Shown here piece by piece: positions 7,713 to 62,871 of a stretch of 64,000 nucleotides of DNA. The notes under the pieces were generated by a model. That model saw nothing but the letters and a program-made list of their open reading frames with translations. It was not told the DNA's origin and made no database searches. The position numbers and the translations under genes were made by a program. Every line of letters starts with the position of its first letter. Positions within the stretch are counted from its first letter, which is position 1. Origin of the DNA: Pseudobutyrivibrio sp. ACV-2 (GTDB lineage Bacteria > Bacillota > Clostridia > Lachnospirales > Lachnospiraceae); contig NZ_FNQZ01000001.1 of the NCBI RefSeq assembly GCF_900107545.1, positions 310,001 to 374,000 on the forward strand. The letters are read 5' to 3'.

Positions 7713-8456
7713 TTATTTCTGTGCAAAATAACTATCTATACCTGCGGCAATTCCTTCTGCCAGTTTATCCTGATAATCACTGTCTTCGAGTTTTTCATCA
7801 TCATCGCTATTCCTCAGATTTCCCACTCTCACAACAGCGTTTGGCACCTGGCACCAATTAATTCCAATAATGTCATCTGTTTCAATAACATCTTTGGAAT
7901 CCAAATTCTTTTCCTGCAAACAGCCTCTCAACACATCTGCCAACAATCTGCACTGGCTATAGGTTCCGTAATTATATGGATTATCTGCAGATTCGCAAAG
8001 CACAAAAATTCCTGAATCCTTTTTATTCTCACCACTGGAGTGAATGCTTAAATATAGGTCCGCAGCCATAGTATTGGCAATCATTGACCTCTCAGCGTTG
8101 TTCATGTCCACATCATTAGTATTACGTGTAAGTTCCACCTTGTAGCCAAGTTTTTTAAGCGCAGCCTCTGTTTTCTTGGCAATAGTCAAGTTTAAATCAT
8201 ACTCAGGAGTTTCTGAAAGGGCTCCCTTTGCCCCAATCAGGTCTTCCGTTTCCCATGACCATGCTCCAGGCCCAACGGATTCCTTTTTATTATTCTCAAT
8301 AGCTTGACATCCAGGATCAATAACAACAAGCTTTGCTGCAAAACTTTTTGATATAAGACCTTTGGCCTGTACATCAATGCTGTCTGCCCCAATAAAAATG
8401 CATAGGAGCATTACCATTACGAAACTGCGCAGTAAATTAAAGTTTTTCTTTCTCAT
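7713..8456 (-). CDS. Secreted N-acetylmuramoyl-L-alanine amidase-like protein, active site altered
   Basis: A 247-residue protein with an N-terminal signal peptide (MRKKNFNLLRSF then a hydrophobic stretch, about 33 residues) and one Amidase_3 domain. Working members of this family cut the sugar-peptide bond of peptidoglycan using a zinc held by His/Glu/His and a catalytic Glu. Here the first ligand motif, normally DPGH, reads IDPGCQ. The second His survives in LSIHSS. The place of the catalytic Glu near the C-terminus reads VVRVGNLRN. The fold seems kept but catalysis is doubtful. The ATG at 8456 has AAAGGGAG upstream; a longer frame opens at 8549 without such a site. Confidence 0.8.
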   Translation of the reverse strand: MRKKNFNLLRSFVMVMLLCIFIGADSIDVQAKGLISKSFAAKLVVIDPGCQAIENNKKESVGPGAWSWETEDLIGAKGALSETPEYDLNLTIAKKTEAALKKLGYKVELTRNTNDVDMNNAERSMIANTMAADLYLSIHSSGENKKDSGIFVLCESADNPYNYGTYSQCRLLADVLRGCLQEKNLDSKDVIETDDIIGINWCQVPNAVVRVGNLRNSDDDEKLEDSDYQDKLAEGIAAGIDSYFAQK

Positions 8457-8591
8457 AGATGAAACACTCCCTTTCCGATAATTTTTAGAAGAGATGAAAG
8501 AAATTAAATAAATCATCCCTATAATCATTATCGTCTTTTTGTGCTTCAATTATGTGAAAAAAATATGAACTATTGGATGTAATGAGTATTT

Positions 8592-8798
8592 TTAACCCTT
8601 TATACCACAATACTCATACCCTGCTGCTTCAACAGCAGCTTTAATGTCTGCTTCTGCCACATCGGCACTAGTCTTAATAGTAACGAGATTATCCTCATGA
8701 TTTGCTGTAGCCTCGTCAACACCTGGGATTTTTTCAAGAGTTTCCTTTACATGAGCTTCACAGTGTCCACACATCATACCTTTTACTGTAATTTCCAT
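8592..8798 (-). CDS. Possible internally initiated CopZ-like copper chaperone (in frame within copA)
   Basis: An in-frame ATG at 8798 inside copA is preceded by a seven-base AAGGAGG, the best-possible Shine-Dalgarno, 11 bases upstream. It would yield a 68-residue stand-alone HMA protein MEITVKGMMCGHCEAHVK..., the size and layout of CopZ chaperones. The rest of copA supplies the same domain as a C-terminal fusion. Whether both forms are made is inference. E. coli copA is known to make a free chaperone by another route (programmed frameshifting). Confidence 0.5.
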   Translation of the reverse strand: MEITVKGMMCGHCEAHVKETLEKIPGVDEATANHEDNLVTIKTSADVAEADIKAAVEAAGYEYCGIKG

Positions 8799-11162
8799 AT
8801 TATTCCGTTCCTCCTTAGAATTTAAAATATCATCATCAACCTTATTATTTAAAAGCTGTTTTTGATCCAATTTGTTTTTAAGCTTTTTATCCAATTTATC
8901 ACTATGTAGGTTAAATAAATTAAGCCTAAGAGCATTTGTTACAACACAAAAGCTGGATAAACTCATTGCAGCTGCTCCAAAAGTAGGATTTAACTCCCAT
9001 CCGAAAGCGTGTATATATGCGCCGGCGGCAAGTGGAATTCCTATTATATTATAGATAAATGCCCAAAATAGATTTTCATGAATATTGATTAATGTTGCAC
9101 GGCTAAGCCTTATAGCCGAAACCACATCAGTCAATCTACTTTTCATAAGAACTACGTCTGCTGAATCTATTGCCACGTCAGTTCCTGCACCTATAGCTAT
9201 TCCAATATCAGCCCTTGTGAGGGCTACAGCGTCGTTGATTCCATCACCAACCATTGCAACCTTGCCAAATTCCTGAAGATTTTTAATAACCTCTTCTTTT
9301 CCATCAGGCTTTACACCTGCCACGACCTCATCCACTCCTGCTTCTTTAGCTATAGCAGCTGCAGTCGTTGGATTATCACCTGTCAACATAACAACATGGA
9401 TTCCCATATTCTTAAGCTGCTCAATTGCTTCAGTGGAATCCTCTTTTATAACATCTGCAACAGAAATTATGCCAAGGAATTTACCATCTCCAGCAAAAAA
9501 TAATGGAGTCTCTCCTTTTTTCGCCAAAGTATCTGCTAAACCTATAAAATCAGGATTAATATCTGACACAGATTTTATCAGTTCAAGGTTTCCCCCATAT
9601 ATTTGCTTACCATCTAAAATTCCTGATAATCCGCTTCCTGTCAAAGCCTTGAAATCTGTAATTTCTGCAGGTTCCAAGCCCTCCTGCAGCCCAGCTTCAA
9701 CTATAGCCTTGGCAAGGGGATGCTCAGACTTATTTTCTATAGCGAAGGCCACTCTTAGTAAATCAACATCATCAATGCCCTCAGCTTCGAAGACTCCTAT
9801 CACCTTTGGTTCACCTTTTGTTATAGTACCGGTTTTATCCAAAGCTACAATCTGAGTCTTTCCGGTTTCCTCCAGGGAAACCGCAGTCTTAAACATTATT
9901 CCATGCTTAGCGCCCATACCATTGCCTACCATAATGGCCACAGGTGTGGCAAGACCCAAAGCACAAGGACAGCTAATTACAAGAACTGAAATTGCTCTAG
10001 CAAGAGAAAAGCCTGCTGTATGCCCCACAAGCATCCATATTACAAACGTAATAAAAGAAATGCTAATTACAACAGGAACAAAAACGCCAGAAACTTTATC
10101 TGCTATCTTTGCAATAGGCGCTTTTGTGGCAGCGGCGTCACTTACCATCTGAATAATTTGTGAAAGTGTTGTATCCTTTCCAACTCTTGTAGCTTCACAG
10201 ACAAGATAACCACTTTCATTGCTGGTGGCAGCGGATACAGTGTCATCCACTGTTTTATCTACAGGAATACTTTCTCCAGTTAAGGCTGCTTCATTTATAG
10301 CACTGCTTCCATCGATAATAATTCCATCTACAGGAATATTGTCCCCAGGCTTTACTACAAATCTGTCGCCTATTTTAACCTGCTCAATTGGGACTACTAT
10401 CTCCTTTCCATCTCTAAGAAGTACCGCCGATTTAGGGGCCAGTTTCATTAAATCCTTAAGTGCATTGGTCGTACGGCCCTTAGAAATTGACTCTAACATC
10501 TTCCCAACAGTAATGAGAGTAAGAATCATTGCCGCCGATTCGAAATAGAATTCATTCATCAAATCCATAACCTTCTCTTGATCCCCATTTACCTGGGCAA
10601 CAGTCATGGCAAACAACGCATACATGCTATAAACGAAAGAGGCTGCACTACCCAAAGCAACCAAAGTATCCATATTTGGAGCTTTGTGTATTAGTCCTCT
10701 AAATCCACTTATAAAGAATTTTTGATTAATAACCATAATAAGGCCAGCAAAAATCATCTCATATAGCCCCATTCCGATATGGTTACCACTCAAAAATGAT
10801 GGCAATGGCCATCCCCACATATGTGCTCCCATGCTAACATACATAAGGGGCAATAAAAGAATTATGGAAGCTATTAATCTGTTCTTAAGCTTAGGAGTTT
10901 CAGTATCTTTTAATGCATCATCATAGTTTGGAATAGATGTCTGGTTAGAAAAATTTTGATTAGAATCTATTAGTGAAGCTCCATAACCCGCCTTTTCTAT
11001 AGCCTCTATTATTTGTCTTGGATCAGCATTGCCTTCCACTCCCATAGAATTTGTAAGCAAGCTTACACTGCAACTTTCAACTCCGGGGACTAAAGCTACC
11101 GCCTTCTCCACTCTTGCCTGGCAAGCCGCACAGCTCATGCCAGTTACGTTATATTTTTCCAT
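8592..11162 (-). CDS. copA: Copper-translocating P1B-type ATPase with C-terminal HMA domain
   Basis: An 856-residue membrane pump that exports Cu(I) using ATP. In order it shows an N-terminal HMA domain (GMSCAAC), transmembrane helices, the actuator motif TGES, the metal-binding SCPCALGLATP, the phosphorylation motif DKTGT, the SEHPLAKAI motif, GDGINDA and terminal helices. After an asparagine/lysine-rich linker there is a second HMA domain (GMMCGHC). The C-terminal HMA is unusual and looks like a fused CopZ. The start at 11162 is chosen because the upstream ATG at 11198 would lie in the -10 box. No copper regulator gene is adjacent. Confidence 0.95.
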   Translation of the reverse strand: MEKYNVTGMSCAACQARVEKAVALVPGVESCSVSLLTNSMGVEGNADPRQIIEAIEKAGYGASLIDSNQNFSNQTSIPNYDDALKDTETPKLKNRLIASIILLLPLMYVSMGAHMWGWPLPSFLSGNHIGMGLYEMIFAGLIMVINQKFFISGFRGLIHKAPNMDTLVALGSAASFVYSMYALFAMTVAQVNGDQEKVMDLMNEFYFESAAMILTLITVGKMLESISKGRTTNALKDLMKLAPKSAVLLRDGKEIVVPIEQVKIGDRFVVKPGDNIPVDGIIIDGSSAINEAALTGESIPVDKTVDDTVSAATSNESGYLVCEATRVGKDTTLSQIIQMVSDAAATKAPIAKIADKVSGVFVPVVISISFITFVIWMLVGHTAGFSLARAISVLVISCPCALGLATPVAIMVGNGMGAKHGIMFKTAVSLEETGKTQIVALDKTGTITKGEPKVIGVFEAEGIDDVDLLRVAFAIENKSEHPLAKAIVEAGLQEGLEPAEITDFKALTGSGLSGILDGKQIYGGNLELIKSVSDINPDFIGLADTLAKKGETPLFFAGDGKFLGIISVADVIKEDSTEAIEQLKNMGIHVVMLTGDNPTTAAAIAKEAGVDEVVAGVKPDGKEEVIKNLQEFGKVAMVGDGINDAVALTRADIGIAIGAGTDVAIDSADVVLMKSRLTDVVSAIRLSRATLINIHENLFWAFIYNIIGIPLAAGAYIHAFGWELNPTFGAAAMSLSSFCVVTNALRLNLFNLHSDKLDKKLKNKLDQKQLLNNKVDDDILNSKEERNNMEITVKGMMCGHCEAHVKETLEKIPGVDEATANHEDNLVTIKTSADVAEADIKAAVEAAGYEYCGIKG

Positions 11163-11196
11163 TACAATAACCTCATGTTCGTTTAATCTAACCATC

Positions 11197-11225
11197 ATAT
11201 TACTACAAACATAGATTTATCGCAA
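11197..11225 (-). promoter_or_regulatory. Predicted promoter of copA
   Basis: Minus-strand TTGCGA (11220-11225), a 17-base spacer and TAATAT (11197-11202) are placed about 35 bases before the copA ATG. No clear CopY or CsoR palindrome was recognised. Confidence 0.5.
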
Positions 11226-11257
11226 TTAATCAGTTTTTTCTGAGTACCGCACAAAAA

Positions 11258-11286
11258 TAAGACCCTTTGATAAACAAAGGGCCTTA
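11258..11286 (-). terminator. Terminator of galE
   Basis: A stem of 7 bp plus 4 bp with one mismatch (TAAG-x-CCCTTTG around ATAAA) is followed on the minus strand by TTATTTTTGT, starting 16 bases after the galE stop. Confidence 0.8.
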
Positions 11287-11302
11287 TAATCAGCATATTA
11301 AA

Positions 11303-12319
11303 TTAATCATCATATCCGTTAGGATTATTCTTCTGCCATCTCCATGAGTCTGCGCACATTTCCTTAATGCCGTATTCTGCTGTCCAACCAAGCTCTTCTT
11401 TAGCTTTTGTAGCATCTGAATAGCATGTGGCAATATCACCAGCACGACGTGGCTTTATAGAATATGGAATCTTGATATCGTTTGCTTCCTCAAAATTCTT
11501 GACAATATCAAGAACTGAGTAGCCTACACCTGTACCAAGGTTGTAAATCTTGAGACCTGCATTCTCCTCGATTTTCTTGAGAGCCTTTACATGTCCCTTT
11601 GCAAGATCTACTACATGGATATAGTCACGTACGCCTGTGCCATCTGGCGTATCATAATCATTTCCGAATACACCAAGCTCAGGAAGCTTTCCTACTGCTA
11701 CCTGTGTGATGTATGGCATAAGGTTGTTTGGAATACCATTTGGATTCTCGCCCATTGTTCCAGATGGATGTGCTCCAATTGGATTAAAGTAACGAAGAAG
11801 AACTACATTCCATTCAGGATCAGCTTTTTGCATATCTGAAAGAATCTGCTCAAGCATTGACTTTGTCCATCCATATGGGTTTGTGCACTGTCCCTTAGGG
11901 CAGTTTTCTGTAATAGGAATCTCTGCTGGATCACCATAAACTGTTGCTGATGAAGAGAAAATGATGTTCTTGCAGTTATGCTTGCGCATTACATCTACAA
12001 GAGTAAGTGTTCCAGCGATGTTGTTCTCATAGTATTCCCAAGGCTTTACAACTGACTCACCAACAGCCTTAAGGCCTGCAAAATGAATACAAGAATCAAG
12101 CTGCTCCTTCTCGAATACTTCATTTAATCTATCTCTATCTAAGATATCGCCTTTATAAAACTTTACTGGCTTTCCTGTGATAGCCTCGACTCTCTCTAAT
12201 GACTTCTCGGAAGCGTTAGAAAGATTGTCATAAACAACTACATCATAGCCTGCCTGCTGAAGTTCAACGCATGTGTGGCTGCCAATGAAGCCAGCTCCGC
12301 CTGTAACTAAAATTGCCAT
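11303..12319 (-). CDS. galE: UDP-glucose 4-epimerase
   Basis: A 338-residue short-chain dehydrogenase-type enzyme that interconverts UDP-glucose and UDP-galactose for galactose use and for cell-surface polysaccharide. It shows the NAD-binding [10 protein letters not shown] at residues 6-15, the SSATVYG segment and the catalytic YGWTK (YxxxK). AAAGGAGG precedes the ATG. It stands as a single-gene unit between a sugar-transporter remnant upstream and copA downstream, with its own terminator. Confidence 0.96.
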
Positions 12320-45396: not shown

Positions 45397-46785
45397 TTAG
45401 TTTCCCCCCAACAACTGTTTAACCAGCTTCTGGGCATTAACGATTTCAATATCATCTGGGACATTCTGCCCTGTGGTTATATAAGAAAGAGATGCGCCGG
45501 TATACAGCTTTAGGTTAAAAATATTACCAATACAATTAGTCTCATCTAGCTTTGTAAATATAAGATTAAAATCTGTAAATTCCATGTAGGAATCTGCTAT
45601 ATCAATTAAATCCTTGTGCTTTGTTGTTGCTGAAAGTACCAGGTAAACCTCGCTTTCGTAAAAATCTGAAAGAGTAGTTATTAATTTTTTAGTATCCGCA
45701 CGCTGCTCTTCATTCCTATGGGAAAAGCCTATTGTATCAACGAGAATTACATCCAAATCCTGATATTCTCTTACCTGACTTTTTACTGTATCAAGCAGTT
45801 CTTCCGCTGAATAAATAACATTCAACGGAACCCCCAATATATTTGCATAAGTCTGAAGTTGATTGGCAGCAGCCATTCTATAAGTGTCTGCGGTGATAAG
45901 TCCTACCTTTTTGCCTTCCTCGACCTTATATTTTGAGGCGATTTTTGCAATCGTCGTAGTCTTTCCAACACCTGTAGGTCCTATAAAGAAAACAACCTTT
46001 GGTTTCTTTTCACCAGGAACTATTTTTGTTGGAGTTCCAAGTTTAAGAACCATTTTTTGATAAACTGAAGAAAGCAGATTATCGATTGAGTGACTGGTCC
46101 TAAGGACTTTATCCATATCCTCTAAAACATTGTTGATGTACTTCTCTTGAACCTCGTTATCAAGTAAAACATTGTAAAGCATCTTTACGAATGTATGATT
46201 ATCATTATTGATGGAAGACCTGTCATCCTTTTTAGCTTCAATTGGTGCAATTACAGGCTCTCTGGTCGATTCTATATTTTCCTCTTTTTCATTCCACTGA
46301 GCTTTTTCCTGACTATTATTTACCATTTGTTTTGAATATGTAGGCTTTGAATATGTAGGCTCAAGAATATTTGCGCGTGGCACTGATCCGGATAGAGGTT
46401 CAAATTCAGGGATTTCTGTAGTAATTTTAGGGGTTTTAGGGGTAGTTGTCATGACATCTTCCTCCTGTTTCTCTAACACTTCATTAACTGCTGAAAACGC
46501 ATTCTTTAAAATAATGGCATCATCGGCAACAGCGTCAAAAGTAACTTTTTTTTCTATTGTTTGCGCATTTTGTTGTGAAGGGACGCTAAAATCTAAAGTC
46601 TCCTTAGAGACCTCTTCATCTTCTACTGCTGCTGTTACCTCATAAGTACTCTTTTTAAAAAGGCTTCCTAACCCCTTAGGTTTTACCACCTTAACATTCA
46701 TTATCACAGCTGCATTTCCAAGTTCTGCCCTAACCTTTGACATTGCCTCTTCTTCATTTTTTCCAGTATATTTGTTAATTGTCAT
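45397..46785 (-). CDS. flhF: Flagellar biosynthesis GTPase FlhF
   Basis: A 462-residue SRP-type GTPase that places flagella. The C-terminal NG domain shows FIGPTGVGKTTTIAKIA, DTIGFSHR and TKLDE. The long N-terminal B region is charged. A perfect 15-base tandem duplication (46331-46345 and 46346-46360) encodes the doubled PTYSK in this linker. The N-terminus has the typical TGKNEEEAMSKVRAELG. Confidence 0.95.
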   Translation of the reverse strand: MTINKYTGKNEEEAMSKVRAELGNAAVIMNVKVVKPKGLGSLFKKSTYEVTAAVEDEEVSKETLDFSVPSQQNAQTIEKKVTFDAVADDAIILKNAFSAVNEVLEKQEEDVMTTTPKTPKITTEIPEFEPLSGSVPRANILEPTYSKPTYSKQMVNNSQEKAQWNEKEENIESTREPVIAPIEAKKDDRSSINNDNHTFVKMLYNVLLDNEVQEKYINNVLEDMDKVLRTSHSIDNLLSSVYQKMVLKLGTPTKIVPGEKKPKVVFFIGPTGVGKTTTIAKIASKYKVEEGKKVGLITADTYRMAAANQLQTYANILGVPLNVIYSAEELLDTVKSQVREYQDLDVILVDTIGFSHRNEEQRADTKKLITTLSDFYESEVYLVLSATTKHKDLIDIADSYMEFTDFNLIFTKLDETNCIGNIFNLKLYTGASLSYITTGQNVPDDIEIVNAQKLVKQLLGGN

Positions 46786-61998: not shown

Positions 61999-62871
61999 TT
62001 ATGGTTCCATCATCTTTGTCAGGACTGCAGCATTGCTTGCATCCATCGCCTCTAAAATAGAAGCTCTGGTGCTTGCGTCCATTGCCTGTAAAATCTGACA
62101 TACTAAATCATAATCATCGGTCATAGCATCAAAGATTGAAGCAGCATTTTTAGCCTTCATGCTTGAATATGTCTTTACGTAATCCTCTATCTCCTTGTCG
62201 TTCTGAAGCTGGCTGACCACCTGTTTATATATTGCAGCAGCATTTTCAGGCTCAATGGATTCATAATAGGTCTTATATTCATTTATATCGGGTGCATTTT
62301 CAGAAAAAACAACCTCCTCATAGAATTTTTCTTTTGTCTCCTCGAAAGCTGTTTGGTTGGCTTTATATTCGGCTAGCTCCTGAGCGGAGGTTTCAAGTTC
62401 CGCTATATAATCGCTGTTTGACTCGCCAGCCGCTTTCATCTCCTCTATCTGAGTTTCCAGTTCTTTTATTCTGTCTATGGCTGACTCCACCGTAGTATAC
62501 TGAGAATATTCATCTTCAACCACTTCCTGTGGCAAATAATCCTCTATACCTGGTAATATCTGATTCACATAAGGGACATCCTTGAGAACAGGAAATAACA
62601 CAGTAGAGCCAAAACCGCCCACATCCATTTTTACCAAAAAGGCAAAAATGACAAGCCAAATAAGGAGGATTAAAAGCACTACAAATGCCATTATTATTCC
62701 TCCTCCAATGCCGAGTCTTTCTTCATCCTCAGGTAGAGTTTCGCCGTTGGCCTTGGCCTCCTTGCGCCTCTCCTTTAGTGCGGCCTTTTCAGCTTTTTTA
62801 GCTTCTTTTTCAGCTTTTTTTGCTTCCTTCTTTGCAGCTTTATCATCCGCTGCATTTGCTACGTCTGCCAT
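61999..62871 (-). CDS. MotE/MgtE_N-type membrane protein of the flagellar operon
   Basis: A 290-residue protein: a Lys/Ala/Glu-rich cytoplasmic N-terminus, one transmembrane helix (about residues 58-85), a periplasmic coiled coil, and a C-terminal MgtE-N-like superhelical part (KNAASIFDAMTDDYDLVCQI). This matches MotE-like proteins seen between fliJ and fliK in Gram-positive bacteria. It may help position stators or chaperone periplasmic parts; the exact role is inferred. Confidence 0.8.
   Translation of the reverse strand: MADVANAADDKAAKKEAKKAEKEAKKAEKAALKERRKEAKANGETLPEDEERLGIGGGIIMAFVVLLILLIWLVIFAFLVKMDVGGFGSTVLFPVLKDVPYVNQILPGIEDYLPQEVVEDEYSQYTTVESAIDRIKELETQIEEMKAAGESNSDYIAELETSAQELAEYKANQTAFEETKEKFYEEVVFSENAPDINEYKTYYESIEPENAAAIYKQVVSQLQNDKEIEDYVKTYSSMKAKNAASIFDAMTDDYDLVCQILQAMDASTRASILEAMDASNAAVLTKMMEP

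Follow-up and report, generated by a model that had tools for sequence, protein, structure and literature searches.

An in-frame internal start in clostridial copA as a candidate source of a free CopZ-like copper chaperone

Does a copper pump gene that ends in an extra metal-binding domain encode one protein only, or does it also give, from an internal start, a free copper chaperone? The question is raised by the copA gene of the window analysed here, a 64,000-nucleotide stretch of Pseudobutyrivibrio sp. ACV-2 DNA, where a ribosome-binding site is predicted inside the open reading frame just ahead of the C-terminal HMA domain. Two products from one copA would have a precedent in E. coli, where the frameshift releases the N-terminal domain of CopA; a copA frameshift of this type relies on a slippery site and on a -1 frame that soon meets a stop codon once the first HMA domain has been read. 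The programmed frameshift of E. coli copA is described as yielding both CopA and free CopZ (Meydan 2017 and Drees 2017, as cited in PMC10187127 and PMC9548414).

The copA locus and its predicted internal start

The copA gene of the window lies on the minus strand (8592..11198; 868 codons from the first ATG), with a possible alternative start at position 11162 (minus strand, MEKYNV), and its ORF (11198..8592, 868 aa) is uninterrupted across the internal site. The product scored 576.4 bits against TIGR01511 (cut-off 397), thus qualifying as a copper-translocating P1B ATPase. It is composed of one N-terminal HMA domain of the CxAC type (10983..11153, minus strand; assigned by domain search and motif counts), the ATPase core and a second, in-frame HMA domain at the C-terminus. 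A linker of 40 codons (8799..8918, minus strand), variable in both length and sequence among relatives, connects the end of the ATPase core (..NALRLN) to the internal start.

Within this linker, a ribosome-binding site AAGGAGG (8810..8816, minus strand) is predicted from sequence and conservation, and is separated by the 11-base spacer AACGGAATAAT (8809-8799, minus strand) from the predicted in-frame start ATG (8796..8798, minus strand), which corresponds to residue 801 (Met801) of the fusion. The original prediction had described exactly this layout, namely an AAGGAGG 11 bases ahead of an in-frame ATG at 8798, placed where the C-terminal HMA domain begins and in a frame that remains open, and the sequence confirms it. 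Initiation at this codon would give a CopZ-like product of 68 residues (8592..8798, minus strand), containing the motif MMCGHC and ending at the copA stop codon. PF00403 (HMA) covers residues 3-62 of this product (E 1.7e-17), and its solved relatives include CopA metal-binding domains as well as CopZ chaperones. The internal start sits between domains, the predicted product being one whole HMA domain with its CxxC. Since the 68-aa product scored below the NCBIfam cut-offs for CopZ (NF047957, 56.1 with a cut-off of 85; NF033795, 49.9 with a cut-off of 91), it is here called CopZ-like, in the sense of a protein that would work like CopZ, and is not filed under those curated models. As expected of a gene within a gene, the inner reading frame is in the same frame as the outer one, has the stop codon in common with it and is preceded by a predicted ribosome-binding site of its own, whose bases are conserved.

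With a predicted energy of -11.1 kcal/mol, the copA site is the second-strongest among the 470 in-frame internal ATGs found in the 51 ORFs of at least 150 codons in the window, where sites of -8 kcal/mol or stronger precede 8 of the 470 and sites of -11 or stronger precede 2. This enrichment is slight and one window proves little, so that the case depends on relatives. A stronger match (-11.7) was found at the in-frame internal ATG 62691 (minus strand), inside the ORF 61999-62871, and other internal ATGs with ribosome-site matches are located at 46452, 32643, 41834 and 57993, some of which may be true gene starts.

Upstream of copA, a terminator-like hairpin (11287-11257, minus strand) separates the gene from a galE-like ORF, which suggests that copA may have its own transcript. 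An internal promoter was discarded as a candidate, 9 promoter-like sites being present in the region 8400-11350 versus 9.9 expected by shuffling; the sole minus-strand one near the internal start (8826-8799) is a 9-of-12 match lying in the drifting linker.

Conservation of the fusion and of the start in relatives

The copA gene was found in all the 29 genus genomes searched, own genome included, and each of the 29 junctions is an in-frame fusion with an ATG at the start of the domain. The ribosome-binding site is AGGAGG in 22 genomes, in two of which GAG or CAG replaces the codon AAG with the bases AGGAGG unchanged, and of the AAAGGA type in the other 7 (-5.7 to -9.4 kcal/mol). A subgroup of the genus (L024-L030) has AAAGGAAG or AAAGGAT instead of AGGAGG. 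Linker length ranges from 90 to 162 bases and linker sequence drifts, while the site stays: in the genus alignment, columns -14 to -11 hold 1.78 bits each and columns -18 to -15 from 1.0 to 1.26 bits, and the upstream columns -36 to -19 hold 0.18 to 1.11 bits. The distance from GGAG to ATG is usually 12 bases in the genus of the window, compared with a commonest value of 9. The canonical 16S tail pattern is present in two congeners (G003 and G028); it was not found, even admitting one mismatch, in the own genome (G000) or in a one-contig congener (G001).

Beyond the genus, the family search covered 298 genomes (286 with CopA) and the class search 293 (253 with CopA), and loci were drawn from the listed part of the matches of each search (many, not all), ranked by similarity to a fused query. 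An extra family set was obtained from 80 of 137 genomes, picked as unlisted, taking the best 30 loci and 20 picked lower down; fusion was observed in 9 of these 20 low-ranked picks, thus the main sample leans towards query-like genes. Named contigs were also scanned with the fused query, and the best 80 loci that were taken, all of them fused, include Butyrivibrio, Blautia, Mediterraneibacter, Schaedlerella, Hornefia and three Treponema MAG contigs. Eight duplicates and seven loci without a full ORF (L041, L089, L254, L268, L287, L294 and L357) were removed before the final count, whereas L002, L031-L035, L331 and L332, which are not separate copies of this copA, had been left out beforehand.

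The final set consisted of 359 distinct copA genes, 338 fused and 21 unfused. An in-frame ATG is located 3-16 codons ahead of the domain motif in 319 of the 338 fused genes, and the site preceding it is -5.5 kcal/mol or stronger in 314 and -8 or stronger in 273 of these. GTG or TTG replaces ATG in three fused genes (L180, L195 and L271, with sites from -9.1 to -11.9). In L154, where two C-terminal HMA domains stand in tandem, a site (-11.2) and an ATG are present ahead of the second domain only. Overall, a credible internal start is present in 318 of the 338 fused genes at the -5.5 cut-off (277 at the strict cut-off of -8), leaving 20 without one. The genes having both fusion and start represent 29 family codes and 195 genus codes, and a further 68 such loci have no code. 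In the Treponema MAG contigs (L279, L303 and L311) copA is likewise fused and has both the ribosome site and the ATG, possibly as a result of gene transfer or bin contamination.

The proposal that copA may encode both a fused and a free CopZ through an internal start is supported by this comparison: where the fusion is present the bases of the site do not vary freely, the ATG being retained in all the genus genomes searched and a credible start in 318 of 338 fused genes. The alternative offered with it, a recent copA-copZ fusion by loss of a stop codon, is at odds with a distribution over so many genus and family codes and uncoded loci. According to this alternative, the site would be left over from a once independent copZ, whose ribosome-binding site it was, and would now be inactive. 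Site, ATG and a whole CopZ-like domain are indeed the anatomy that such a fusion would leave, and unfused copA genes with a small HMA gene right behind do exist (L244, L376, L378 and L379). On the contrary, the presence of the fusion in every genus genome searched and in 338 of 359 genes, the largely randomised linker around a site that stays, and at least 30 changes in the codon phase of the site on the tree, which a decaying relic would not be expected to display, make this explanation very improbable.

The fused frame is kept as well. In 302 fused genes, the linker has on average 41.5 codons, 16.6 of which are one base away from a stop, and still 338 of the 359 genes have an open frame. A tree of 309 genes, including 7 unfused ones, requires at least 7 changes between the fused and unfused states. 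The second Cys is preceded by His in 294 of 302 C-terminal domains (CxxHC) but by Ala in 300 of 306 N-terminal domains (CxxAC), indicating that the former domain did not arise as a copy of the latter. A missing stop codon or an assembly error as the origin of the open frame was ruled out by the 338 open fusions.

Bases, peptide and start codon at the junction

Windows of 14 codons containing an ATG elsewhere in the same copA genes (n=6399) were used as control, and gave a site of -8 kcal/mol or stronger in 140 cases and of -5.5 or stronger in 1043; the 273 of 319 junction ATGs at -8 are therefore far above chance. Shuffling of the linker codons produced a mean of 10 (maximum 20) of 317 sites at -8, and recoding that left the peptide unchanged and drew on the codons of the gene itself (100 recodings) a mean of 103 (maximum 119) of 319, versus the 273 observed. 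Lys-Glu is encoded by AAGGAG in 71 of 94 occurrences at the site and in 133 of 685 elsewhere in copA (p 5e-27). The last GGAG ahead of the start is in codon phase 2, 0 and 1 in 223, 36 and 1 of 260 genes, respectively, covering 15 dipeptide/phase combinations, and the phase changes mentioned above were counted on a tree built with FastTree from the ATPase core (phases there 219, 39 and 4). Such variety of phases and dipeptides, together with controls by shuffling and recoding that do not reproduce the site, indicates that it is the bases that are kept, not the peptide. It had been anticipated that the linker peptide need not be conserved, and the retention of the same bases in other codon phases bears this out. 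The start region is also weakly structured (mean -1.1 kcal/mol at 286 sites versus -9.1 at 858 random copA positions), in part because linkers are A-rich.

These data bear directly on the possibility that a K-E-rich linker end and the Met are maintained for docking or folding, the ribosome site being a by-product. K-E is indeed the dipeptide most often encoded across the site (145 of the 260 genes with GGAG), and synonymous recoding leaves a third of the sites strong. However, the strong sites observed outnumber those of every single recoding, the same bases also encode EE, QE, TE, ME, LE, GE, GG, GD, GA and RR, codon choice is shifted at the site, and ATG is replaced by GTG or TTG in three genes, so that we consider a constraint at the protein level very improbable.

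Start codon and site tend to occur together. In the first set, 126 of the 144 genes that have the ATG also have a strong site, as do 3 of the 8 that lack it (p 0.002); after correction for the tree, with the three GTG/TTG genes assigned to the trait "start" by their strong site, 4.8 pairs agreed and 0.3 disagreed on average (median p 0.06), and the association is only suggestive.

When the 600 bases downstream of copA were inspected, 6 of the 20 fused genes that lack the start, but only 4 of 303 that have it, were followed by a separate small HMA gene (p 4.6e-6, kinship ignored), 15 further start-bearing genes being outside the comparison because of too little flank. Two of the four genes having both start and HMA neighbour show weak sites (L052, -5.8; L264, -5.9). 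Among the unfused copA genes, 8 of 21 have a downstream small HMA gene, one of which (L381) is plainly spurious. When both sides of copA were considered, a short HMA frame within about 400 bases was present in 7 of 13 genomes with a fused gene lacking the start and in 1 of 30 genomes with the start; a further genome has a long frame, and one frame adjoins a second copA copy. Genome-wide, strong free HMA frames (at least 55 bits and at most 150 aa) were found in 0 of 13 genomes without start, in 1 of 30 with start and in 4 of 7 unfused genomes, the 13 including G085 (L154), whose second C-terminal domain has the start. No compensation was thus detected at the genome scale, and the effect is seen only in the comparison of the copA neighbourhood.

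Pausing of elongating ribosomes at SD-like sequences has been proposed, and the location of the site in the linker past the end of the ATPase core would suit a slowing of ribosomes behind the membrane part for folding or insertion, with no initiation. Nonetheless, a pause needs no start codon at initiation spacing, which 322 of the 338 fused genes have as ATG, or as GTG/TTG with a strong site, and it leaves aside that sites tend to be weaker in genes lacking the ATG and that a separate downstream HMA gene accompanies loci lacking the start more often; it is the least probable of the three explanations weighed here.

Predicted dual output and comparison with known systems

On this comparative basis, the junction is very probably an old and selected in-frame internal start, by which one copA mRNA would give both the pump and a free CopZ-like chaperone. 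Ribosomes starting at the copA start codon would synthesize the full pump with its tethered C-terminal copper-binding domain, while other ribosomes would be recruited to the AAGGAGG inside the linker, where structure is weak, and initiate at ATG 8798, leading to a free cytosolic CopZ-like protein of 68 residues. The small protein may bind Cu(I) and carry copper to the pump, like CopZ elsewhere, or may buffer copper, and the tethered copy of the C-terminal HMA domain may feed the pump locally.

A broader reading, which we consider likely though held with less assurance, is that much of the class Clostridia, along with some Treponema MAGs, encodes the "missing" CopZ inside copA, with an ancient and selected internal start keeping tethered and free products in one frame. 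The start and an adjacent separate HMA gene would then substitute for each other in evolution, and the output of free chaperone would be coupled to pump synthesis by the ribosomes that cross the site. Several observations count against the best reading: only 6 of the 20 start-less fused genes have a downstream small HMA neighbour, the loose cut-off of -5.5 is also reached by 1043 of 6399 control windows, three of the 8 genes of the first set without ATG retain a strong site, the 12-base spacing of the genus exceeds the commonest 9, and the usual 16S tail pattern was not found in the own genome.

As in E. coli copA, a pump and a free copper chaperone would be obtained from one gene. Unlike in E. 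coli, it is the C-terminal domain that would be released, by in-frame internal initiation without frameshift, and the chaperone would have the stop codon of copA in common, not its start; the open frame at the C-terminal junction implies that no slippery site is needed there. The same layout is described for RpnL/RpnS (PMC10327210) and for two-polypeptide endolysins (PMC9430671), in which an internal ribosome site, an in-frame start and a common stop allow the C-terminal part to be made separately. Those proteins belong to other families and have other roles; here the layout would concern a metal pump and a chaperone, in many families of Clostridia. In Listeria and Bacillus, separate genes in csoR-copA-copZ or copZA operons are reported (PMC4938975), which bring the same two functions together, whereas in the present locus the copZ frame is continuous with copA. 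A C-terminal metal-binding domain is also attributed to CopA of Archaeoglobus fulgidus in a title cited in PMC7558416, and by that title alone the two copper ATPases are alike in having an extra domain of this kind at the C-terminus.

No earlier report of an internal start in copA was found in the open-access papers searched; in-frame internal starts and a dual output of copA are each already known, and their combination, an in-frame internal start in copA, would be new. If true, it would represent a second and independent route to pump and chaperone from one copA, beside the E. coli frameshift. CopZ has been reported as absent from gut Clostridiales (PMC4938975), and a CopZ hidden in frame inside copA would likely explain the absence reported there, longest-ORF gene finding giving one protein at such loci. 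The fused genes also provide hundreds of natural variants in which to study how one site is shared by elongating and initiating ribosomes.

Two other weak small HMA frames are present in the own genome, so that the internal product need not be its sole free HMA protein. A family of small free HMA proteins with a GMMCxMCESHVND-like start (CxMC, not CxHC) was observed directly behind copA in some genomes, namely beside 4 of 20 fused genes without start (L043, L094, L097 and L136) and 3 of 303 with start (L052, L085 and L264), and a relative of this family occurs in the own genome away from copA (C38:558922-559107, L033).
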